Shown here piece after piece: positions 14,004 through 23,996 of a stretch of 38,028 bases of DNA (position 1 is its first letter; each line of letters starts with the position of its first letter). A program made the translations under genes and the position numbers. Below the pieces are notes generated by a model. That model saw nothing but the letters and a program-made list of their open reading frames with translations. It was not told where the DNA came from and ran no database searches. This DNA is from an uncultured Coriobacteriaceae bacterium (GTDB lineage Bacteria > Actinomycetota > Coriobacteriia > Coriobacteriales > Atopobiaceae): positions 1 through 38,028 of the forward strand of contig CACXDP010000106.1 in the NCBI GenBank assembly GCA_902766445.1. The letters run 5' to 3'.

Positions 14004-14028
14004 CGTGTGTGCAGGGTGCCTAATAACT

Positions 14029-14037
14029 TGCTAGAAT
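14029..14037 (+). promoter_or_regulatory. Extended -10 promoter for the transglutaminase-like gene
   Basis: TG-C-TAGAAT at 14029-14037, 37 nt upstream of the ATG at 14075. No good -35. Confidence 0.4.
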
Positions 14038-14074
14038 GCTGTTACCTGAAGGCCCGTGAAAAGGGGTGGTTGAC

Positions 14075-16558
14075 ATGAGGAATAACGAACGGATCGAAAC
14101 GAGGGGTGGGGGAGGAGTGCTCGCGCTGAGGGCCTTTGCCTCACTCGTACTGGTGGTTGCGATGGGATTCGCAACCTTTGGAGTTGGCTATGCCATCGAG
14201 GTTGTTGACGAGCCGGCCATCGTCGCGGAGGGCGATGACATCGTTGCGGTCGACCCGACAATTCCCGAAGAAGAGACGATTGACGAAACCGAAAACGAAG
14301 GCATCGTCTCCGAGGACGAAGGCAACGTTCCGAACGATTCCGCCACCAACGCAGAAGAGGTGGCCAAAAGGGTTACCTTCATCGAGCCTATGACGCTGAG
14401 TGCTCAGTCGGATGACGATGATGCTATCGCTCAGTACCCCGAGCTTGCGGCAAAGATTCTCAACAACTACGTCAAGCGCAGCAGCGAGCCCATCGACATT
14501 TCGTCCTATGACATTGATTTCTCTGGCGTCCAGAGCATAGTGAATGCACTCCTCAAGCAGCATCCCGAGCTGGTTGACATATCGACGGGCTTTTCGATAG
14601 CCGACAAACAGTTTGTCCCCGAGTACATGTTTACTGATAAGCCTATCACCGAAATATTGGCCATGCGCCATAAGATGGCGAGAGAAATCGCTCATGCAAT
14701 GTCGTGGATTCCCGAAAATGGGACTGACCTTCAGAAGGTTAAAGCCGCACACGATTGGCTCGTCGCCCACATTTACTACGACTATGAAACCCTTGATTTG
14801 CTGAATACGCTTGACGCAGAGTCAGTGACTAGGAAATCTACGGCCTATGGAAACGTCCTTACCAACATCGAACGCTACGCTTACTGCGCCTATGGTCCGT
14901 TGGCAAAGCATACTGGCGTGTGTGATGGCATAACATATGCATTTATGCTATTGATGGATCAGTGCGGCATCGAGTGTGAGCATGCCGTTAATCCTCCAGC
15001 CGCCCATGCTTGGAATCATGTGAAGATTGATGGCAACTGGTATAACGTGGATGTGACATGGGACTTGAATGACACGAAAGAGGGGGGTGGAACCGACTAT
15101 AATTACAAAATCAACTCAGAAATCAATAGCGTCTATTGGAAGTACTTTTTACCAGGATACATTAAATACGATTACTTCATGAAGAGCGATGACTTTATTG
15201 AATCGCTCGATCAGAGCAAAGGCAAAGTAGAGCATGTCAATTATGACCCGTATGGCAATTACAGCCATTGTACCAATACGTCGTACGACAGCATAACGCA
15301 CGATGATTGGGAGGTGACCGCACCTCTTCCCAATGCTAAGTATACGGATGACGACGGGGCCCACGAAAAGACCCAGGTCACGTCCTTCGGTCTCTCCGCA
15401 ACGACGCTTACCCTGGGTGTCGGCGAGACCGGTCAGCTTGCGGTACAAAACGTCGACCCGGCTACCATAAGCCCGCTTGCGTCTACGTGGACCTCGTCTG
15501 ACACGAGCGTTGCCTATGTCTGCGCCGACGGCACCGTCGTGGGGATTGGCGAGGGCACCGCAACCATCACCTGCACGATGGGCGACGAGGACCTGCCGTG
15601 TGAGGCCGATAGGTGGGGCAGGATTGTGCAAACCTGCGAGGTCACCGTGGGGAATGAGGCGGTCGTAACCGAGCCGAAGTTCACAAATGCACAGCTCCTC
15701 CTTGGAGAGCAGATCAAGATGCGGTACTGGCTCACGGTGCCCGAGAACTTTGATGGCACCGATGCGTCTGCAGTCTTCTCCATCGGGGGAAAGAAGATGC
15801 GTACAACGGAGCCCATCACCATCGCTGACGCCACATACGATTCGGCCAACAGCCGCTACGCCTTTGACTTCGAGCTAAGCTCGATCGAGATGGCTGAACC
15901 TGTCACCTGCACCTTCACCTATGGTGATGGCGAGACGGTAGGGTTGGTTTACTCCGTGAAGCAGTACGTGCAGGCTGCGCTCGACTCGGATCGTCTGAGT
16001 GAAGCCGAGAAAGCCTGCGTGAGGGCGGTTGCAAACTACGGCCACTACATGCAGCTCTACCTCGCAACGTCGAACGGCTGGGTTATAGGCACGGACTACG
16101 CGGAGATGGACCTTAGCTACGAAGACGTGGATGCGGACGGCGCGGACGACAAAGTGACAGCAACAATGGGCGTGCAAGCCTACATGCCTCGGAAATCGGG
16201 AGATGGTGTCTCGGACATCAAGGTCACGTGCTCTCTGGGTCTTAACTCGTACACGACCCTTGACCTGTTCTTTACCCCCGCTGCCGATGCCGAATTCGAC
16301 GCGACCGCAACGTTTAACGGTCAAGAATACACGGCTACAAAGGTCGGCAATAAGTACCGCTTCCGCATAGACCGCATCAAAGCTGCCCAACTCGGAGATA
16401 AGGCTACCGTGACGGGTACGGTCAATGGCAAGGAATTCGATGTGGAAGCTGGGCCCCTAAGCTATGCGTGCGCGGTGCTCAACGGTTCTTTCGGATATGA
16501 GGCCGACAACGCTATGGTCGCACTTTACCACTACTACAACACCGCTAAGCAACTCTAA
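14075..16558 (+). CDS. Secreted transglutaminase-like protein with Ig-like (Big2) domain
   Basis: 827 residues from ATG 14075 (AAAAGGGG upstream; a GTG at 14066 is in frame). A signal peptide (ALRAFASLVLVVAMGFATFG) leads into an acidic, disordered stretch of about 80 residues rich in Glu/Asp. A transglutaminase/cysteine-protease-like domain follows. Its catalytic triad is visible as Cys283 (TGVCDGI), His311 (AHAWNHV) and Asp326 (VDVTWD). Next comes a bacterial Ig-like domain (TTLTLGVGETGQL ... SSDTSVA ... GIGEGTATITC). The C-terminal 300 residues are a beta-rich module of the sort found after LRR or Big2 domains in Coriobacteria and Clostridia surface proteins. It is likely exported and may cross-link or cleave peptides at the cell surface. 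The 31-bp palindrome pair begins 9 nt after the stop. Confidence 0.85.
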   Translation: MRNNERIETRGGGGVLALRAFASLVLVVAMGFATFGVGYAIEVVDEPAIVAEGDDIVAVDPTIPEEETIDETENEGIVSEDEGNVPNDSATNAEEVAKRVTFIEPMTLSAQSDDDDAIAQYPELAAKILNNYVKRSSEPIDISSYDIDFSGVQSIVNALLKQHPELVDISTGFSIADKQFVPEYMFTDKPITEILAMRHKMAREIAHAMSWIPENGTDLQKVKAAHDWLVAHIYYDYETLDLLNTLDAESVTRKSTAYGNVLTNIERYAYCAYGPLAKHTGVCDGITYAFMLLMDQCGIECEHAVNPPAAHAWNHVKIDGNWYNVDVTWDLNDTKEGGGTDYNYKINSEINSVYWKYFLPGYIKYDYFMKSDDFIESLDQSKGKVEHVNYDPYGNYSHCTNTSYDSITHDDWEVTAPLPNAKYTDDDGAHEKTQVTSFGLSATTLTLGVGETGQLAVQNVDPATISPLASTWTSSDTSVAYVCADGTVVGIGEGTATITCTMGDEDLPCEADRWGRIVQTCEVTVGNEAVVTEPKFTNAQLLLGEQIKMRYWLTVPENFDGTDASAVFSIGGKKMRTTEPITIADATYDSANSRYAFDFELSSIEMAEPVTCTFTYGDGETVGLVYSVKQYVQAALDSDRLSEAEKACVRAVANYGHYMQLYLATSNGWVIGTDYAEMDLSYEDVDADGADDKVTATMGVQAYMPRKSGDGVSDIKVTCSLGLNSYTTLDLFFTPAADAEFDATATFNGQEYTATKVGNKYRFRIDRIKAAQLGDKATVTGTVNGKEFDVEAGPLSYACAVLNGSFGYEADNAMVALYHYYNTAKQL

Positions 16559-16566
16559 GCGTAAGG

Positions 16567-16632
16567 TGACCACGATCCCACAGCGGGATTGTGGTCATTT
16601 TTGACCACGATCCCGCTGTGGGATCGTGGTCA
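16567..16632. repeat. Palindrome repeat, copies 1 and 2, head-to-head pair
   Basis: Copy 1 (16567-16597) has loop ACAGC and one stem mismatch. Copy 2 (16602-16632) is perfect with loop GCTGT. Each is a 31-bp element with half TGACCACGATCCC, a 5-nt loop and the inverted half. TTTT separates them, so the pair is itself a 66-bp inverted repeat. It probably terminates transcription from either side and resembles REP/BIME-type arrangements. Confidence 0.85.
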
Positions 16633-16692
16633 CTTTTCCTTGGCGATTTGTTCTAGGGCCTGCGCGACCGAATCGTCCTCCGCACTCCCGGA
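16630..16692 (-). pseudogene. Fragment: 3' end of a Cof-type HAD hydrolase gene
   Basis: Read on the minus strand, this encodes SAEDDSVAQALEQIAKEK and a stop. That is the same ending as the intact HAD gene at 19142-19954, and the DNA there (19142 onward) matches with only three differences over the first 54 bp. The rest of the gene is missing and is replaced by the metallopeptidase gene ending at 16701. As in the intact gene, the stop codon TGA is the first three bases of an adjoining palindrome. Confidence 0.75.
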
Positions 16693-16700
16693 TGGTTGAT

Positions 16701-19088
16701 TTATGCCGACGCTAACACCGTGGCATCCTCTGCGCTTGAGTACTCTGCGACGGTGGCAGATTCTTGTGTTTCTTCCGCATCGCCTGTGGAGGCGGACTCC
16801 GAAACGGTGCTCGATTCCTCCGTCGGGGTTTCAGTCGAGTTCACAGCAGTTTCGGCTTCCCCCTTCGGGGTATTGGTTGGGTTCGTCTCGGCGACAGGCC
16901 TCTCGGCTGAGACGGTATCCGAATCAGTCGTTGCGAGAGGCTCCTTGGTTACGGCGGCAGTGGTAGGTTTTTCTTCTGTGGTGGAAGACGTCGGTTTCTC
17001 GGCTGTAGCAGTGGGCGTCTTCGCTGCTTGTGGAAGGGCATCGGAGTCGGACGTGAGTTTGGTAAGCTCTTCCATCAGTTCGATGAGGTCGTTCGGGTCC
17101 ATCGAGGTCTTTCCCGCGCCAATGACGGTTGTGTCGCTGCTGACGCTAGAGGGTACCATAGTATTGGAGTCGACGATCTGATAGAGCGGCGAGGAAGACC
17201 TCTGCGTCGGATCCAAGGGCGTCGAATAGTCTTTGTCGAAGCCAAACAAGATGGATCCGTTGGGTATCCTGCCGTCGGGTAGGGCTTTCTCGATGCTAGT
17301 CATGTAATTAATGAAGTCGACAACAAATTCTATGGACTGACGGTCGCCGGCATATCCCTCCTCGCCGTTCCGCACAGCCGTCTCGCCCAAGATGAACTTT
17401 GCAGCAAAATCGTCAGTGCTGCTATAGGCACTCGCGCCGTTGTCGTCAGTAGAGATGTTCCGGATGATCTTATCCAGCGCCTGTCCCTCGTGCATCCACC
17501 GAAGAATGCAGTCAAGACCAGTTCGGATCTTTTCTGCGGAGAAGGTTGCCTGACCGCTCTCGTCTACGGACTTTGCCGAGTCGCCCGCGTATGCTTTCTG
17601 GTATGCGAGGTCACTCAGGTAGAGCGTCGCAAGATATCCGGATACATAGCGCGCGTTCCATGGCTCAATATCGACCGCACCCTCAGGCGTCTGGATTTGG
17701 AGGCCCTCCGCAAAGCCGAGAGGAAAGAAAGCGTATTCCCCATCTGGGGTTTTTGCACTTATGAAATTCGTGATAAGCGTACTTGGGTCCAGGATGTCTA
17801 GCGGTTTCCCGTCCTTCATCCTGAGGAGGTTGAATTGGTCATGGCGGTAGTTGTAGTTGTTTTCCATGCACGAGGCGGTGCCCTCTATGAACCAGAGTGG
17901 GTAGCGAAGCATCTGGAATAGCTGCAGTTCTTCATCGGTGGCGGTTCCGTTGAACAATCTCAGTGCATCCCCTGGTTCAAGGGCGCCGATCATGCCGGTA
18001 CGATTGTAGTCACCCATGAACGCGTGAAACATCTCGTGTACGATCGTGTTTTGAAGCGACTCGAAGTCCACGCCGCTGTGAACAAGCGTGTATTTGCCGG
18101 TGATGGGGTCGATTACGGGATTCTTGTTGGCGTCCATGAGGACAAGGGATGACGTGTCGACACCAAACATGTAACAGTATTTTGGTTGCCCGTCGAGCTC
18201 TCGAATCGAAGCCTGAACGTAAGCAAGCGTTTCTGTTGCTGCCTGATGCTCTGTCACCCCGTCCATGTCGCCTTGCTTGTAGTAGATGTACATGCCTATG
18301 CTTGTGCCGAGTTCGCTGTTGACGGACGCCTCTGTGAATGCGGGGAACTTATGGAGCAGAAGCTCGATGGCCTGGGGCTGCAGGTAGTTGAGCACGAGGT
18401 CGATGAGCCACTCCAGGTCTTCATCGGAAAACGCGTCGCGCGCGGTTTGGGCACAGTAGATTTCCACCAAGGATCGTTCGGCGGGCTTGGTCTCGGCTTC
18501 GCCCGGAGGGAAGGGTGCATCTGCCTTTCCGGTCGCTGGGGGAGCCGTGACAGCAGGAGATGCTGTATCGATAGACGTTGGCTGCTCGGATTCGGCGTTT
18601 TGTGCAAAGAGGTCTCGAAGGGTTGCGGGCAGGATGTAGGTAATGCCGCGCTGGGCGTCGTATACGGAGATGATATCGTTGGTGCCAAAGAGTTCCGTGA
18701 GTGAGTCCGAGAGGGTGACCGTGAAATCGCCGCCATCAAGTGCGTATTCCTGCGGGACGAAGAAGGCCAACACGGGCAGGTATTCGTGCCCCTCTTCTGC
18801 CGTGGTCACGATGGAGCGATCATCGCTCACCCACAGGGTGGGGATATCCCATGTGACGCCTTCGGCGGTGGTAACGGTTGCGGTGTCGTCGAGCTTTGCT
18901 CCGGGCTGGGGCTTGTCAACGTTGTCGATGCGCACGTTGGTGACGGTCATCGCCTGATCAGTCGTGAGGGTATGGTTGTCCAGTCTCACCGAGCGCTGTT
19001 CGGCAATAGCTGTGGTGGGCAGCGCGGTGGGTAGCAACAGTGCAATGCTCAAAAACATCGATAGCAGCTGTTTCAGTCTTTGTGTCAC
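16701..19088 (-). CDS. Secreted HExxH zinc metallopeptidase
   Basis: 795 residues from GTG 19088, with AAAGGAG 7 nt upstream. A signal peptide (LLSMFLSIALLLPTALPTTAIAE) is followed by a beta-rich N-terminal part and a Pro/Thr-rich linker (about 165-205). The catalytic region has HEMFHAF (His351, Glu352, His355). Glu402 in WFIEGTAS, 47 residues later, would be the third zinc ligand, a gluzincin-like arrangement. The last 130 residues are a low-complexity Thr/Ser/Glu/Pro stretch, typical of a wall-spanning stalk, but no LPXTG or membrane anchor follows (the end is VLASA). It is likely exported and acts on extracellular or surface proteins. It lies between two copies of a HAD 3' tail, which suggests this gene is an insertion. 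I do not assign a named family. Confidence 0.8.
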   Translation of the reverse strand: MTQRLKQLLSMFLSIALLLPTALPTTAIAEQRSVRLDNHTLTTDQAMTVTNVRIDNVDKPQPGAKLDDTATVTTAEGVTWDIPTLWVSDDRSIVTTAEEGHEYLPVLAFFVPQEYALDGGDFTVTLSDSLTELFGTNDIISVYDAQRGITYILPATLRDLFAQNAESEQPTSIDTASPAVTAPPATGKADAPFPPGEAETKPAERSLVEIYCAQTARDAFSDEDLEWLIDLVLNYLQPQAIELLLHKFPAFTEASVNSELGTSIGMYIYYKQGDMDGVTEHQAATETLAYVQASIRELDGQPKYCYMFGVDTSSLVLMDANKNPVIDPITGKYTLVHSGVDFESLQNTIVHEMFHAFMGDYNRTGMIGALEPGDALRLFNGTATDEELQLFQMLRYPLWFIEGTASCMENNYNYRHDQFNLLRMKDGKPLDILDPSTLITNFISAKTPDGEYAFFPLGFAEGLQIQTPEGAVDIEPWNARYVSGYLATLYLSDLAYQKAYAGDSAKSVDESGQATFSAEKIRTGLDCILRWMHEGQALDKIIRNISTDDNGASAYSSTDDFAAKFILGETAVRNGEEGYAGDRQSIEFVVDFINYMTSIEKALPDGRIPNGSILFGFDKDYSTPLDPTQRSSSPLYQIVDSNTMVPSSVSSDTTVIGAGKTSMDPNDLIELMEELTKLTSDSDALPQAAKTPTATAEKPTSSTTEEKPTTAAVTKEPLATTDSDTVSAERPVAETNPTNTPKGEAETAVNSTETPTEESSTVSESASTGDAEETQESATVAEYSSAEDATVLASA

Positions 19089-19113
19089 GAGATTCTCCTT
19101 TACTGTCTACGGT

Positions 19114-19144
19114 TGACCACGATCCCACAGCGGGATCGTGGTCA
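19114..19144. repeat. Palindrome repeat, copy 3
   Basis: A perfect 31-bp palindrome with loop ACAGC, in the 53-bp gap between the HAD gene (ending at 19142) and the metallopeptidase start. The HAD stop codon is formed by the last three bases (minus-strand TGA). The loop is inverted relative to copy 2, which adjoins the duplicated HAD tail. Confidence 0.85.
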
Positions 19145-19954
19145 CTTTTCCTTGGCTATCTGCTCTAGGGCCTGCGCGACCGAATCGTCCTCCGCAGGCC
19201 CGATGTGCCACCGGGCTGCGGCCGAGGCGGCGGGAGTCGCACCTGCCACGACTACCGAGTGCTCGACGGACAAGAGAATCGCCACGTCGTTGTCGGCGTC
19301 GCCGAACATCATGGCTTCATCATGAGACAGGCCGAGCGCATCGAGGAGCATTGGCAGCGCGGTGCCCTTGTTGAGGCCTTTTGGCAGCACATCGCACCAC
19401 TGCGGCGCGGGCTGCGCATAGTCGAAGCAGGGGCAGACCTCGCGGGCACGCTTCAAAAAGTCGTCGAGTGTCTGCTGGTCGCGGTTGCATGCTATGGTGG
19501 CGCCTATGATTTGGGTGTCGGGGACCTTCGGTATCGCGACTCCGTTGAAGCCGAACGTTCCCTTCCACGGGGCAATCTCCTCTTCCGTGGCGCCGATGCA
19601 GTAGACGAGGTCGGCTGGCTCGACTTCAAGGGGATATACGTTCACAAAGGTCTGGGGATACTCGCGTGCCAGCTCTGCTAGACGGGACAAGGACTCGTTG
19701 CTAAGCAAGGTCAGTCGTGCTAGCTCGCCGTCGACCATGATCTTCTTCCCGTTGGACAGGATGCCCGTGGCAAACGGCCACGCCTGCCCGCGAAACTGAC
19801 CGAGCAGTTCCGGTACGTCACGCCCCGTCGCCAGGCCGAACCGCACGCCCGCGTCCTGCACGGCCTTGATGGCGGCAAGCGTGCGTTGGGTGACGGTCCC
19901 ATGCCCTAAGGGTATGAGCGTTCCGTCCACATCCGACAATACGAGCTTAATCAT
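19142..19954 (-). CDS. Cof-type HAD-superfamily hydrolase
   Basis: 270 residues from ATG 19954, with GAGGAG 7 nt upstream; the frame extends further upstream without a ribosome-binding site. Motif I SDVDGTLI (Asp8, Asp10), motif II LATGRD, motif III Lys in LPKGLNKGTAL, and motif IV GDADNDVAIL are all intact, with a Cof-type C2 cap between. Such enzymes dephosphorylate sugar phosphates, nucleotides or pyridoxal phosphate; the substrate cannot be told. The start motif MIKLVLSD is shared with the HAD gene at 31431-32285, indicating paralogues. It is probably transcribed ahead of the metallopeptidase gene, with palindrome copy 3 in between. Confidence 0.85.
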   Translation of the reverse strand: MIKLVLSDVDGTLIPLGHGTVTQRTLAAIKAVQDAGVRFGLATGRDVPELLGQFRGQAWPFATGILSNGKKIMVDGELARLTLLSNESLSRLAELAREYPQTFVNVYPLEVEPADLVYCIGATEEEIAPWKGTFGFNGVAIPKVPDTQIIGATIACNRDQQTLDDFLKRAREVCPCFDYAQPAPQWCDVLPKGLNKGTALPMLLDALGLSHDEAMMFGDADNDVAILLSVEHSVVVAGATPAASAAARWHIGPAEDDSVAQALEQIAKEK

Positions 19955-19980
19955 GGGGGTACTCCTCGGGTTTTCTCGAA

Positions 19981-20046
19981 TGACCACGATTCCACAGTGG
20001 GATTGTAACCAATTTTGACCACGATCCCGCTGTGGGATCGTGGTCA
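19981..20046. repeat. Palindrome repeat, copies 4 (degenerate) and 5, head-to-head pair
   Basis: Copy 4 (19981-20011) has several substitutions in the stem and right arm (ends GTAACCA). Copy 5 (20016-20046) is perfect with loop GCTGT. The pair has the same 4-nt spacing and opposite-loop order as copies 1/2, showing that the pair is a unit. It lies between the divergent HAD and YD-repeat genes. Confidence 0.8.
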
Positions 20047-20129
20047 GAGCCAGCCGTGCATTTGATTGCCGTGCGTCGCTTAGATGCTTTGACCGCACCT
20101 TCGTAGCTCTCAATGCCCAAGCCAGCTGC

Positions 20130-20138
20130 TGATATAAT
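20130..20138 (+). promoter_or_regulatory. Extended -10 promoter (TG-A-TATAAT)
   Basis: A consensus TATAAT at 20133-20138 with TG one base upstream, 49 nt before the start of the gene at 20188. This is the best promoter match in the window. No strong -35. Confidence 0.55.
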
Positions 20139-20187
20139 CCGATACTCTAGTAATGTCACTCGCACGGCTTGTTGGCAAGGAGCACAC

Positions 20188-21933
20188 ATGGGAAGCGTGA
20201 CCAGAAGACAGTTCATTTCCTCGTCTGCGCTTGCATTCGCGGGTTGTATTCTCTATCGAGATGGTGAGAGCACAGTGCGACCCGATATCTCGTCGCGAGT
20301 TTTCGAGGCTGACAGATCGAACGTCGCCTCCAATGACATACCGTCCCGCGCTATGAGTATAGATGAATTAGCTGATGCTTTCGATCTATCTGTTCCTCAA
20401 AGGATGATCTCTGACGAGGAGCGTCTGGCGCTGAACTACCTATTGGAGTCTTTTCCAACTTTTTGGCAAGCACCAACCTCGGATGAGCTCCTATTGGATA
20501 TCGTTGGTGCCGCGAAAACGTCTTACGGAACTTATATCGACGCACTTATTCACCCATGGCGTAATATCCCTTCAGGTTTGGTTTCCCAAAAGTGGTTAAG
20601 CGATGGACCGTACCATTTACCCGCGCAATTTGGATACGACTACAGGCTATATTCCTTGCCCGAGGTGGGGGACTACCGATGCCGTCGTGAATACTCTCGT
20701 GAGTACGCCGTCAGTCTGAAGAAAGATGTCGAAGAGGAGGTCTTGTACAAAACGTGCGACTATCAATACGGAGATGATGGTCGACTTACGTGCTATGACA
20801 TGCATCCCGATCCCATGAGTATCCCCAACCCCGTGGAAAACTGGCATTGCACGTATGATGAGCGAGGTTTTCGCACCGAAGTGGTTGAGGCGTTAGGTTA
20901 TCGAATCAGTGGAGGTGGTGACAGAATCTACTATGATGTGAGCCGCACCAAAATGGAGTACGACGACGAAGGTCACGTAACAAGGATGCTGGAAGAGTCT
21001 ATGCAGGATAGCCCTTCACCCTACAGTCTGGACGAACCTGATGCTAATAGGACGATCGATTGCAGTTGGATATATTCACCGGAGGGCTACATTTTGGCTG
21101 CAAGCGAATGGAAATCATACTCTCGGAATGAAGAGGACATGATTTACTGGCGTGTGTTCGACAAGAAGGGAAGGCCTGTTCGTCTCGAAAAGCACAAAGG
21201 TAGCAAGGTCATGGACGGGTACGTAGGGATTGACTTCGATGACTACAATCGACCAATCGCGTGGCGAGGGTACGATGGAGAGAATCTGACTGCGCGTGAG
21301 CTTGAATACGACAATAAAGGTCGAATAACTCGCTCATTCGTTGAAGAAACAGGAGAAACTAAGGTCATTACCTACGTTGAAGACTACCACTTGACGATTG
21401 AAGAACGGGTAGTTGGCAACAAAACGATTGGTGTATGTGTAATCCAATATGATTCTGCTGGTCGGTTCGCGTACATGCACACGGATTACCGTGATTATGC
21501 GAGCCAGATCGTGTTGCGGGACGCCCAGGGTCATCCACTTTGTGTCGAGTCGTGGGCTTCGGAAGATGGCAGCTACAAGCTCGTAGAGCGCATCACATAC
21601 ACCTATGATGCTAAAAGCGGTCTGCTTTCTAAGGCCGCCAAAGCATCAACCCGACCCAAAGCGACCGTAACGGAGGGTATGCAGTCGAACCTTGGGCTTG
21701 GCCAGATTGATTACTACAAGATTGGGTATGCCTACGAATACTTCAATGCTAGCACGGGAGAGATCGGTGCGTCTGCCCACGTGGAAGACGGGGTCAATCT
21801 CTCTTTGGACGAGGATGAACTCCTCTGTCCCGCTCCAGATACGTGGCCGACGCAAGGTGTATTTGAAAAATGGAATCCGAAAGACCTGCCCTTTGAGGAG
21901 TCGCTTGCATTTGCCGATTCGCTTTCACAGTAG
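20188..21933 (+). CDS. Exported YD-repeat-like protein with Tat/lipoprotein signal
   Basis: 581 residues from ATG 20188, with AAGGAG 6 nt upstream. The N-terminus VTRRQFISSSALAFAGC combines a twin-arginine motif and a lipobox Cys. It is therefore likely exported folded and lipid-anchored. From about residue 180 on there are repeated YD-type units: YGDDGRLTCYD, YDERGFRTE, YDDEGHVTRM, YDNKGRITRS and YDSAGRFAY. These resemble RHS/YD beta-strand repeats but are short and without the RHS core or toxin tip. Function is unknown; sugar binding or surface display is possible. Its neighbour at 22095-23927 has similar repeats, so the two are probably related paralogues. Codon use is more AT-rich than the flanking genes. 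Confidence 0.75.
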   Translation: MGSVTRRQFISSSALAFAGCILYRDGESTVRPDISSRVFEADRSNVASNDIPSRAMSIDELADAFDLSVPQRMISDEERLALNYLLESFPTFWQAPTSDELLLDIVGAAKTSYGTYIDALIHPWRNIPSGLVSQKWLSDGPYHLPAQFGYDYRLYSLPEVGDYRCRREYSREYAVSLKKDVEEEVLYKTCDYQYGDDGRLTCYDMHPDPMSIPNPVENWHCTYDERGFRTEVVEALGYRISGGGDRIYYDVSRTKMEYDDEGHVTRMLEESMQDSPSPYSLDEPDANRTIDCSWIYSPEGYILAASEWKSYSRNEEDMIYWRVFDKKGRPVRLEKHKGSKVMDGYVGIDFDDYNRPIAWRGYDGENLTARELEYDNKGRITRSFVEETGETKVITYVEDYHLTIEERVVGNKTIGVCVIQYDSAGRFAYMHTDYRDYASQIVLRDAQGHPLCVESWASEDGSYKLVERITYTYDAKSGLLSKAAKASTRPKATVTEGMQSNLGLGQIDYYKIGYAYEYFNASTGEIGASAHVEDGVNLSLDEDELLCPAPDTWPTQGVFEKWNPKDLPFEESLAFADSLSQ

Positions 21934-21953
21934 TTCGGGACACTCGATAGTTT

Positions 21954-21984
21954 TGACCACGATCCCGCTGTGGGATCGTGGTCA
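21954..21984. repeat. Palindrome repeat, copy 6
   Basis: A perfect 31-bp palindrome, loop GCTGT, 20 bp after the stop at 21933 and preceded by TTT. It probably terminates the upstream gene. Confidence 0.85.
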
Positions 21985-22094
21985 GCCTTCGGAGCTTTCT
22001 GTTTCGCTTATTGCGCAATTCATGGTCTCTACCTGTGGTATCAAGATAGTGGTTTCTTCGACCGTCAATGCAAGTCAACCATAGGGAGGTAGCG

Positions 22095-23927
22095 ATGCGT
22101 TTCAAATACCGTAAGACAGCAGCTGGCCAATGGACAAGTGGATATCGCCCGTCAAAGCTATGGAGCGTTGTCGCGTTCCTGCTTACCGTGCTGTTGGTGA
22201 ATGGCAGCAGTGCGATTGCTGATACTGGCAAGAAGAAGACGGATAGTGGCGATATGGTGTCGCGCAAACTCGTGACGTCCTATCACCTGACTTGCGTAGA
22301 GAAACAGGACGAGGACCGTTACTACGAGGAATGGGTGAACGCTTCCTACGACGGCCAAGGACACATCACGCACAAGGAGATCCTTCGCGAGACCTCGAAG
22401 GAGTACGGGGGCTGGAATGGGGAAGTTACCTATTCGCTCGACTTTAAGTACAGCAAATCCGGGCGTCTGTCTAAGATTTCTGGCACAGAGGGCGACTGGG
22501 GCGCTGCGAGCCATGCCGAACTACCGGTGGAGTGGGAGATTGCATACAGCAAGAATGGTAAGAAGTCGCGCGCGGATGGTACGGAGCGCTCAGATCCGCG
22601 ACACGTTTATGATACGTATGACGGCGATGGCAACCTCATCGCCCGCGACTACCTCATCAGGGGCGGGCAGGCGCTTGACATCGGCACTCTTTCGCTCTCG
22701 TACGACGAGGAGGGTAGGGTCACCAGGCAATCGTGCGAGTCGTCAAAGGCAAGTCTCAGCTCAGGCGGTCAGCCATCATCGAAGATGAGTTACGACATGA
22801 GCGTGGGCTACGATCGAGAAAACCGTATCGCTTCGATTGATGCATACGACTCAGACGGAAAGAAAGTCAACGGATACACCTATGAGTATGATGACGAAGG
22901 CCGCCTGACTCGCAGAAGTCGCTATCTAAATGGGGAAGAACACAGTCAAACATACGCTTACGACAAGAGTGGGCATTTGGCGTCCGTCGATGGGAACGCG
23001 ACACATGCGACCTTCGTCACGGATGATGACGGCTCCATCATATCAGCGCGAATCGAGACTGACTACGATGTTCAGGAATACGAGATCGAGTACGTCACGA
23101 AAAAGACCCCGAGGGGCCAAGTGCCAGTCAATGCCGTTGACCTTACCGATCCGACGCATCCGGAACTCTACAGCGAGCTCTGGGTCTCGCACGCGTCCTC
23201 AGGTCCCACTCCGTTCGATGAGGCAGAGTTCCTCCGCGAGAACCGCAGATGGCGAGAGCTGCACGAGGTCGCTTCAAGCGAGGATTCTTCGAAACAGGAT
23301 TCGACGGGAACGACGAACGCGTCTAATGGCGAAAAGCCTTCGAACAAATACGAATCAGTTCTAAAGGAATATAGGGATGGTCTCAACAGCGATACTCAGC
23401 CCTCGTATGAGACCATCAACCTGGAAGCGTGGGCGGCACGTGATCGCAACAGGGATCGATACGCCTATGCACTCTACGACTTGAACGGCGACGGATCCGA
23501 GGAGCTTCTTATCGGCATCGAAGAGGACGCGCCTGTGTCAGAAGGGGGCTTGGACGTGAACTATCGTCTGTATGACCTATTTACAATCGTCAACAACAAG
23601 CCAACCAGGGTTCTGGATAGCGAAAAGATGGGTTCGCTCGGGTATAGGGCGTTCTGCATACCTTGTGAGAACGGCGTTTTGGTGACCGGTGGATCCGGTG
23701 GCGCCAACTACCACGTCTGCGAGTACTGGAAGATGGGGAAAAAGGCCAACGAGCTTGCATTGCTTTGCGGCGTGGTCGTGGACGGAGGCTCTTATACGTT
23801 TACCAACGATAGCGGCGACTCAGAGACCCTCACCGGCGAGGAGGCGATTGCCAAGTATGCCGGTATTGCCGCAGGATACACACCGATAGCCAGCTTTGAC
23901 TGGCGCCTGTTAAACGCGGATGCATGA
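22095..23927 (+). CDS. Secreted YD-repeat-like protein with C-terminal DxNGDG domain
   Basis: 610 residues from ATG 22095, with AGGGAGG 5 nt upstream; an in-frame ATG at 22068 has none. An internal hydrophobic segment (residues about 29-47, SVVAFLLTVLLVNGSSAIA) acts as a signal peptide. Residues about 70-330 carry YD-type units: YDGQGHITHK, YDGDGNLIARD, YDEEGRVTRQ, YDDEGRLTRRS and YDKSGHLAS. After a Ser/Thr-rich linker, the last 170 residues form another domain opening with a calcium-site-like DLNGDGSEELLIG. This domain type is common in lipoproteins of Gram-positive gut bacteria and has no assigned function. It is likely at the cell surface and a partner or paralogue of the gene at 20188. 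The stop codon abuts palindrome copy 7 directly. Confidence 0.75.
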   Translation: MRFKYRKTAAGQWTSGYRPSKLWSVVAFLLTVLLVNGSSAIADTGKKKTDSGDMVSRKLVTSYHLTCVEKQDEDRYYEEWVNASYDGQGHITHKEILRETSKEYGGWNGEVTYSLDFKYSKSGRLSKISGTEGDWGAASHAELPVEWEIAYSKNGKKSRADGTERSDPRHVYDTYDGDGNLIARDYLIRGGQALDIGTLSLSYDEEGRVTRQSCESSKASLSSGGQPSSKMSYDMSVGYDRENRIASIDAYDSDGKKVNGYTYEYDDEGRLTRRSRYLNGEEHSQTYAYDKSGHLASVDGNATHATFVTDDDGSIISARIETDYDVQEYEIEYVTKKTPRGQVPVNAVDLTDPTHPELYSELWVSHASSGPTPFDEAEFLRENRRWRELHEVASSEDSSKQDSTGTTNASNGEKPSNKYESVLKEYRDGLNSDTQPSYETINLEAWAARDRNRDRYAYALYDLNGDGSEELLIGIEEDAPVSEGGLDVNYRLYDLFTIVNNKPTRVLDSEKMGSLGYRAFCIPCENGVLVTGGSGGANYHVCEYWKMGKKANELALLCGVVVDGGSYTFTNDSGDSETLTGEEAIAKYAGIAAGYTPIASFDWRLLNADA

Positions 23928-23958
23928 TGACCACGATCCCGCTGTGGGATCGTGGTCA
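23928..23958. repeat. Palindrome repeat, copy 7
   Basis: A perfect 31-bp palindrome, loop GCTGT, starting at the base after the stop of the upstream gene and ending 39 nt before the SixA-CHAD start. No copy is present further right in the window. Confidence 0.85.
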
Positions 23959-23964
23959 AAAGCG

Positions 23965-23973
23965 TGATATGAT
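23965..23973 (+). promoter_or_regulatory. Extended -10 promoter for the SixA-CHAD gene
   Basis: TG-A-TATGAT just downstream of palindrome copy 7, 23 nt before the ATG at 23997. That would give a very short 5' leader, and the palindrome would occupy the -35 region. Confidence 0.4.
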
Positions 23974-23996
23974 GTGTTTGGATTTAGGAGGCTGCC

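Follow-up and report, generated by a model that had tools for sequence, protein, structure and literature searches.

Inverted REP doublets in two related coriobacterial genomes: a REPIN-type repeat family without the GTAG tag and with a probable cognate HUH/Y1 transposase

Among the closest described systems are the REPIN-RAYT systems (Bertels & Rainey 2011, PMC3116915; Nunvar 2010, PMC2817692), in which an inverted doublet of REPs serves as the replicating unit, each transposase gene has its own type of REP and is flanked by it, the copies are intergenic, and insertion leaves no target duplication; the REPs carry a GTAG or GTGG tag, and the invariant ends of GI REPINs start 71 bp apart. The TIRYT enzymes and their TIRtrons (Di Nocera 2013, PMC3733652) combine a RAYT-like HUH/Y1 enzyme bearing a C-terminal helix-turn-helix (HTH) with inverted repeats devoid of GTAG, some of which form moderate families and some of which occur in dimers, the motif GGGGWSAS being present in the flanking repeats of the majority, not all, of the described cases. 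Near the genes of TnpAREP subclass 2.1, no REP-like sequences are reported (PMC6006769). In E. coli, the REPs of the REP/BIME system lie near stop codons (PMC12306157) and the activity of TnpAREP, which is deployed with a GTAG guide, needs an unpaired bulge in the REP stem (PMC8266576), while the enterobacterial RU elements are described (PMC2759123) as small mobile repeats of 103-168 bp that lie inside or at the ends of genes and carry reading frame into them. No description of RAYT families in the Coriobacteriia was found in the open literature, although absence from that literature is not proof.

The repeats characterised here were recognised in a 38,028-nucleotide stretch of DNA (the window) from a Coriobacteriales-type host, and they work like a REPIN-RAYT system yet are not GTAG REPs. 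Likenesses to REPIN-RAYT include the inverted REP doublet as the apparent replicating unit, a separate REP type for each transposase gene compared, a REP-flanked gene, intergenic copies and the lack of target duplication; the differences, besides the host, are the missing GTAG/GTGG tag, a 4-nt spacer, a C-terminal HTH on the transposase, and element ends that double as stop codons. The enzyme type, its HTH and the GTAG-less inverted repeats are shared with TIRYT/TIRtrons, and the earlier dimer families of Di Nocera (PMC3733652) limit novelty; by way of difference the window family's REPIN lacks GGGGWSAS, a motif that three sibling RAYT loci in the genus do possess. In contrast to what is reported for genes of subclass 2.1, the transposase gene is flanked by REPIN doublets with dozens of dispersed copies. 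The transposase fold, the stem bulge and the position near stops recall the E. coli system, from which the family differs in having no GTAG guide and in a stem that begins on the stop codon itself, and in comparison with RU elements the unit is only 66 bp and of other sequence. Taking these comparisons together with the data below, we consider it highly probable that the palindromes represent the REPs of a non-autonomous mobile family of the REPIN type with a cognate HUH/Y1 transposase, and that recombination subsequently occurred between REPs.

The first-pass annotation of the window had reported seven 31-bp palindromes, all of which were located at the positions given (Table 1), although perfect palindromy held for only five of the seven. 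Searches with the half-site TGACCACGATCCC, allowing up to two mismatches, gave 13 matches in the window compared with a mean of 1.29 and a maximum of 4 in shuffled versions of it, and all 13 fell within 16567-23958, in keeping with the annotated restriction of the copies to 16.5-24 kb. The distribution of the sites over five consecutive intergenic gaps, with one or two copies in each, was likewise as annotated, as were two head-to-head pairs with a 4-nt spacer, which are inverted doublets with spacers TTTT and ATTT (the latter at 20012-20015). The density of five clusters within 7.4 kb greatly exceeds that of the genome, the expected number being ~0.15 on the assumption of ~80 clusters genome-wide (our own estimate), and the clustering has P ~5e-7, or ~3e-4 once the choice of place is allowed for. 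Perfect palindromes, 5/7 of the window REPs, accounted for 0/84 of the doublet REPs elsewhere in the sample from the same genome; the window copies are atypical, and the 31-bp perfect palindrome is an unusual form of the family.

Table 1. Coordinates of the repeats in the window and of the segments associated with them.
Feature	Position	Strand	Intergenic gap	Remarks
REP, left half of REPIN doublet (TGACCACGATCCC ACAGC GGGATTGTGGTCA)	16567-16597	+	16559-16700	One stem mismatch; 8 bp past stop of gene 14066-16558
4-nt spacer TTTT of REPIN doublet	16598-16601	.	16559-16700	Consensus over 66 doublets: NTTT/AAAN
REP, right half of doublet	16602-16632	+	16559-16700	Perfect palindrome; next come CTTTTCC and a degraded copy (58 bp) of the tail of the HAD gene
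REP singlet	19114-19144	-	19089-19141	Perfect palindrome; HAD gene (19142-19954, minus strand) takes its TGA stop from the final three bases
Degenerate REP, left half of doublet	19981-20011	+	19955-20112	Five stem mismatches
REP, right half of doublet	20016-20046	+	19955-20112	Perfect palindrome; 3.9-kb segment missing in G008 has its left breakpoint here
REP singlet	21954-21984	+	21934-22067	Perfect palindrome; between both genes of the variable segment
REP singlet	23928-23958	+	23928-23996	Perfect palindrome; abuts the stop of gene 22068-23927; 3.9-kb segment has its right breakpoint here
3.9-kb segment absent from G008	20047-23958	+		Genes 20113-21933 and 22068-23927 (the latter a YD/RHS-repeat protein)
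Second segment absent from G008 at the locus	14004-16717	+		Gene 14066-16558, REPIN 16567-16632 and the copied HAD tail

Wider analysis was based on pattern searches across genomes and on 80 sampled stretches, the window's own genome (G000; 4.07 Mb in 484 contigs) and that of a close relative in the genus (G008) both being fragmented assemblies. Exact half-sites numbered 117 in G000 and 76 in G008, with a single example across the other 14 genomes of the genus, and 163 were recorded in G000 with one mismatch allowed; the reversed control returned 0 in each case. The doublet core GGGNNNGTGGTCA-N4-TGACCACNNNCCC was detected in G000 (40) and G008 (22) only, among 140 genomes at the level of the host's taxonomic family. 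The palindromes belong to a family of small mobile-DNA-like repeats, about a hundred in number, in G000 and one close relative, and their annotation as a dispersed REP-like element was supported: the genome-wide searches revealed neither just seven copies nor a random scatter inside genes, the two outcomes named beforehand as contradicting it. No exact copy of the GATC-type doublet core was present in viral contigs, and no phage vehicle was found.

Across 40 sampled stretches plus the window, 102 REPs were located in 60 clusters, of which 42 were doublets, 38 with a spacer of exactly 4 nt. The 31-bp palindrome originally put forward as the element is consequently a real repeat but not the mobile unit, which appears to be a 66-bp inverted doublet (REPIN) made up of two non-palindromic 31-bp REPs and a 4-nt spacer, mostly NTTT or AAAN. 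One arm of each REP is near-constant (CACGAT-CCC; fixed arm TGACCACGATCCC) and the other variable (CTAG, TTT, AAA and others), doublets being present with the variable arms outside and with them inside. Among 66 doublets, pairing between the two REPs was conserved in 88-100% of sequences at every position, as opposed to just 8-56% for pairing within a REP at the variable positions; because of this difference the doublet is taken to be copied as a unit and an internal bulge to be normal in each REP, and the occurrence of whole-doublet subfamilies also points to the doublet as the replicating unit. The predicted single-strand fold was one long hairpin of ~-40 kcal/mol, single REPs giving -7 to -16 kcal/mol, and the outer arms TGACCAC/GTGGTCA formed a highly conserved dyad.

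With a length of 31 bp and about 100 mostly intergenic copies, these repeats answer the description of a REP (an imperfect palindrome of 20-40 bp with many extragenic copies), and the 66-bp doublets that of a REPIN (two inverted REPs with a short spacer, folding into one hairpin). Membership of the canonical, GTAG-tagged REPs nevertheless fails because the GTAG/CGTC end tetranucleotide is missing: the ends are TGAC/GTCA, and none of the 8 flanking positions nearest the element had a fixed base. At the borders, direct repeats were no commoner than in shuffled pairs, and a reading of the elements as DDE-type MITEs was rejected for want of a target-site duplication.

The first-pass annotation had recommended a search for a RAYT-type (Y1 transposase) gene, and such a gene is present in G000. 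In both G000 and G008 a gene for a 251-aa protein with a Y1 transposase domain (PF01797) adjoins rpsL, with a complete REPIN immediately on either side of it; the first TGA of the REPIN downstream serves as its stop codon. Between the two genomes the protein shows 98% identity. The catalytic residues, H60-V-H62 and Y119-IHQ-NP, were invariant at the catalytic positions of the alignment, so that the enzyme shows the HUH motif and single tyrosine with Y---NP expected of a RAYT, together with a gene flanked on both sides by a dispersed repeat family. A C-terminal HTH was recognised as PF02796 at residues 217-247 (24.7 bits against a cut-off of 23.8), HTH_23 scoring just under its cut-off, and the AlphaFold model of the G008 protein had helices at 214-250 (pLDDT 83). 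The best PDB fold match of that model was 4er8 (E 5e-6), the E. coli TnpAREP in complex with a REP hairpin, which was also retrieved by a sequence profile built from a broader alignment; a RAYT profile from the genus members alone retrieved no PDB sequence at E 0.01. The score against NCBIfam NF047646 (REP-associated transposases) was 57.9 bits, below the cut-off of 80, which is consistent with a divergent subclass and does not earn the curated name. By virtue of its HTH, the transposase probably fits RAYT group 1/TnpAREP subclass 2.1 and the TIRYTs.

What most strongly links enzyme and repeat is the pairing of one enzyme with one repeat: a RAYT from another member of the genus (G013), 41% identical, has on its flanks a different repeat of which 37 copies occur in G013 and none elsewhere in the genus. 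At 14 of the 27 Y1 loci of the genus a stretch of 16 bp or more is common to both flanks, and no strongly IS200-like locus is among these 14. As a separate observation, repeats of their own flank most of the RAYT-like genes of the genus (loci L051-L075); G000 has a second RAYT-like gene (L052; G000:C27:4199-4528) with different repeats nearby (GGACAAACGTCCCCGTCCCC), possibly a second repeat family.

An association with gene ends was evident throughout, bearing out the annotated preference for sites just after genes. Open frames were assigned with a simple gene caller; of the 49 gene 3' ends next to an element, 24 overlapped it by exactly 3 nt (the TGA) and four more abutted it. Long open frames entering the element used the TGA frame 30 times in G000, compared with 9 and 7 for the other two frames (P ~1e-5), and 31 times against 9 and 9 in G008 (P ~1e-5), the two sets of counts not being independent owing to shared ancestry; at several loci (L087, L111 and L140) a single element closes open frames on both sides. 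Within the window itself the claim that several copies abut or form stop codons was correct in kind and overstated in number, a stop being formed once only (TGA of the HAD gene, 19144-19142, minus strand) and abutted at 23928. HAD relatives lacking the element mostly extend for a further 10-13 codons, and the extension is 2 codons in the two nearest RmlD relatives; in the HAD and RmlD genes the element has accordingly replaced the stop. After gene 22068-23927, by comparison, the element was inserted directly behind the TGA; TGA is likewise the final codon of the G003 and G014 relatives, at approximately the same length. That last case, and the dominance of the exact-overlap class (24/49), might be read as a target preference for TGA stops in place of the survival of in-frame insertions; we regard this as unlikely, since the stops of the HAD and RmlD relatives lie elsewhere and are mostly not TGA, and the comparison of three genes favours survival of in-frame insertions near gene ends over strict TGA targeting.

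The same gene-end position, strong hairpins and a CTTTT directly after 16602-16632 and 19114-19144 would suit intrinsic, possibly bidirectional, transcription terminators held at gene ends by selection. A terminator role had indeed been proposed by the first-pass annotation, and it fared poorly: a full stem with a short T run occurs at those two sites only, these being the two of the seven window sites with a full stem that loosely qualify as a GC-rich stem plus T run, and the 11 terminator-like sites in the region represent no excess over the 9.1 in shuffles. Selection for termination also sits badly with the absence of the doublet core from 138 of the 140 related genomes, with the location of 51 placed copies (33 between tandem and 10 between divergent genes), with stems that often begin at the stop codon and mostly lack a T run, and with the bracketing of the transposase gene by copies. 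As an account of the family it is very improbable, though some copies possibly have a secondary termination effect, including a terminator role at the two window sites. Still harder to credit, and in our estimation extremely unlikely, is a regulatory dispersal in which the repeats are double-stranded operators for the HTH of the transposase or for a nucleoid protein: the conserved TGACCAC/GTGGTCA dyad and the HTH itself would accord with it, whereas most copies lie at gene 3' ends rather than promoter positions, and doublets with matched variable arms appear to be copied as whole units.

Matched flanks were mostly 90-99% identical between G000 and G008. The 250 kb of alignment contained 51 synteny breaks, and for 22 of these an element was no more than 40 bp away, a distance within which 1.1% of aligned positions fall; the 22 probably include a few alignment artefacts, and misassembly at short repeats could contribute by mimicking breaks. 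At the window locus, G008 has a single REPIN linking the HAD gene to the SixA/CHAD gene, an exact REP-to-REP fusion whose halves match window 19981-20046 and the window from 23928 onward; because both ends are matched in this way, the 3.9 kb is missing exactly between two identical direct 31-bp REPs. Gene 22068-23927 has no other copy in G008, and a 61%-identical relative occurs at other loci of G003 and G014. Adjacency of HAD and SixA/CHAD was not found in the outgroups, and the 3.9-kb difference is compatible with gain as well as with loss. Other segments of ~1.7-2 kb start or end at elements, doublets and singlets alternate at the same site, and searches of G008 with two accessory stretches (L108 and L086) gave almost only element matches. 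No filled/empty pair for a single insertion emerged from the G000-G008 flank comparison, in which elements with matched flanks were common to both. From these alignments the elements appear to mark sites of rearrangement between the two chromosomes, and the first-pass suggestion of recombination points gains support from the breaks and the REP-bounded segments. In the region of the second missing segment, gene 14066-16558 encodes a transglutaminase-like protein with a bacterial Ig-like domain, and G008 has another palindrome (TGACAAGGCGACAGGTGCCTTGTCA; L118:18765-18825) where G000 has the transglutaminase-like gene.

The HAD tail copy (16633-16690) is identical to 19145-19202 at 53 of 58 positions. 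Because this copied tail is found alongside REP-bounded segments and the local excess of perfect palindromes, the window array is probably the remnant of a recombining, locally homogenised set of copies, in which recombination or conversion, and not seven separate insertions, was responsible for the spread. To extend this into a purely segmental duplication of gene-plus-REP cassettes, with the family immobile, would account for the five near-identical perfect REPs, the copied tail and the breaks at elements; it is improbable, however, in view of copies at dozens of loci with unrelated flanks and of whole-doublet subfamilies that recur at many sites.

For the preferred reading, that of a REPIN-type mobile family, the following sequence of events is envisaged. 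The 66-bp doublet of two bulged 31-bp hairpins would be the replicating unit, copied and inserted via single-stranded DNA by its cognate HUH/Y1 transposase, either now or formerly. No target duplication would accompany insertion, and the insertions that survive would be mostly those at gene 3' ends, where, given that each element end starts with TGA on the inward-reading strand, an in-frame insertion near the gene end would create a new stop. The 31-bp copies would then provide short homologies for recombination by which gene segments might be gained, lost or moved between REPs, and the window array would be a local, homogenised product of such recombination rather than seven fresh insertions. 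By analogy with the bulge requirement of the E. coli enzyme, the transposase may act poorly on the window's perfect palindromes.

A more ambitious proposition, to which we attach tentative and distinctly limited confidence, is that a RAYT group 1/TIRYT enzyme maintains tag-less REPINs that act as portable stops and gene-exchange joints and are recognised by way of the bulged stem and an HTH/TGACCAC contact. Were it true, one element between convergent genes could end both, insertion at a gene end would be nearly harmless, REPs would be joints for segment exchange between strains, and the enzyme would read the bulged stem plus the TGACCAC dyad (via the HTH) in place of a GTAG guide.

The family provides a clear REP/REPIN partner for an apparent member of the HTH-bearing branch of REP transposases, in a gut/rumen lineage of Actinobacteria where each transposase compared has a private repeat. 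It offers a second, GTAG-less recognition system in which to study the choice of DNA by domesticated transposases, and a possible explanation for repeats gathering at gene ends, namely that they bring their own stop codon along; the elements also flag where genes appear to have been exchanged between two close species.

Two individual loci are of note for the flanks of their REPINs. A further perfect inverted repeat, at least 20 bp long (TTCAACAACCGC...GCGGTTGTTGAA), has the REPIN at L107:3595-3660 at its centre; this REPIN may have landed in the loop of a pre-existing hairpin. At L082, REPINs at 17653-17718 and 19334-19399, 1.7 kb apart, share a near-identical left flank (atacatggcgcctcatttcc...), and the pair is a duplication that includes flanking DNA.
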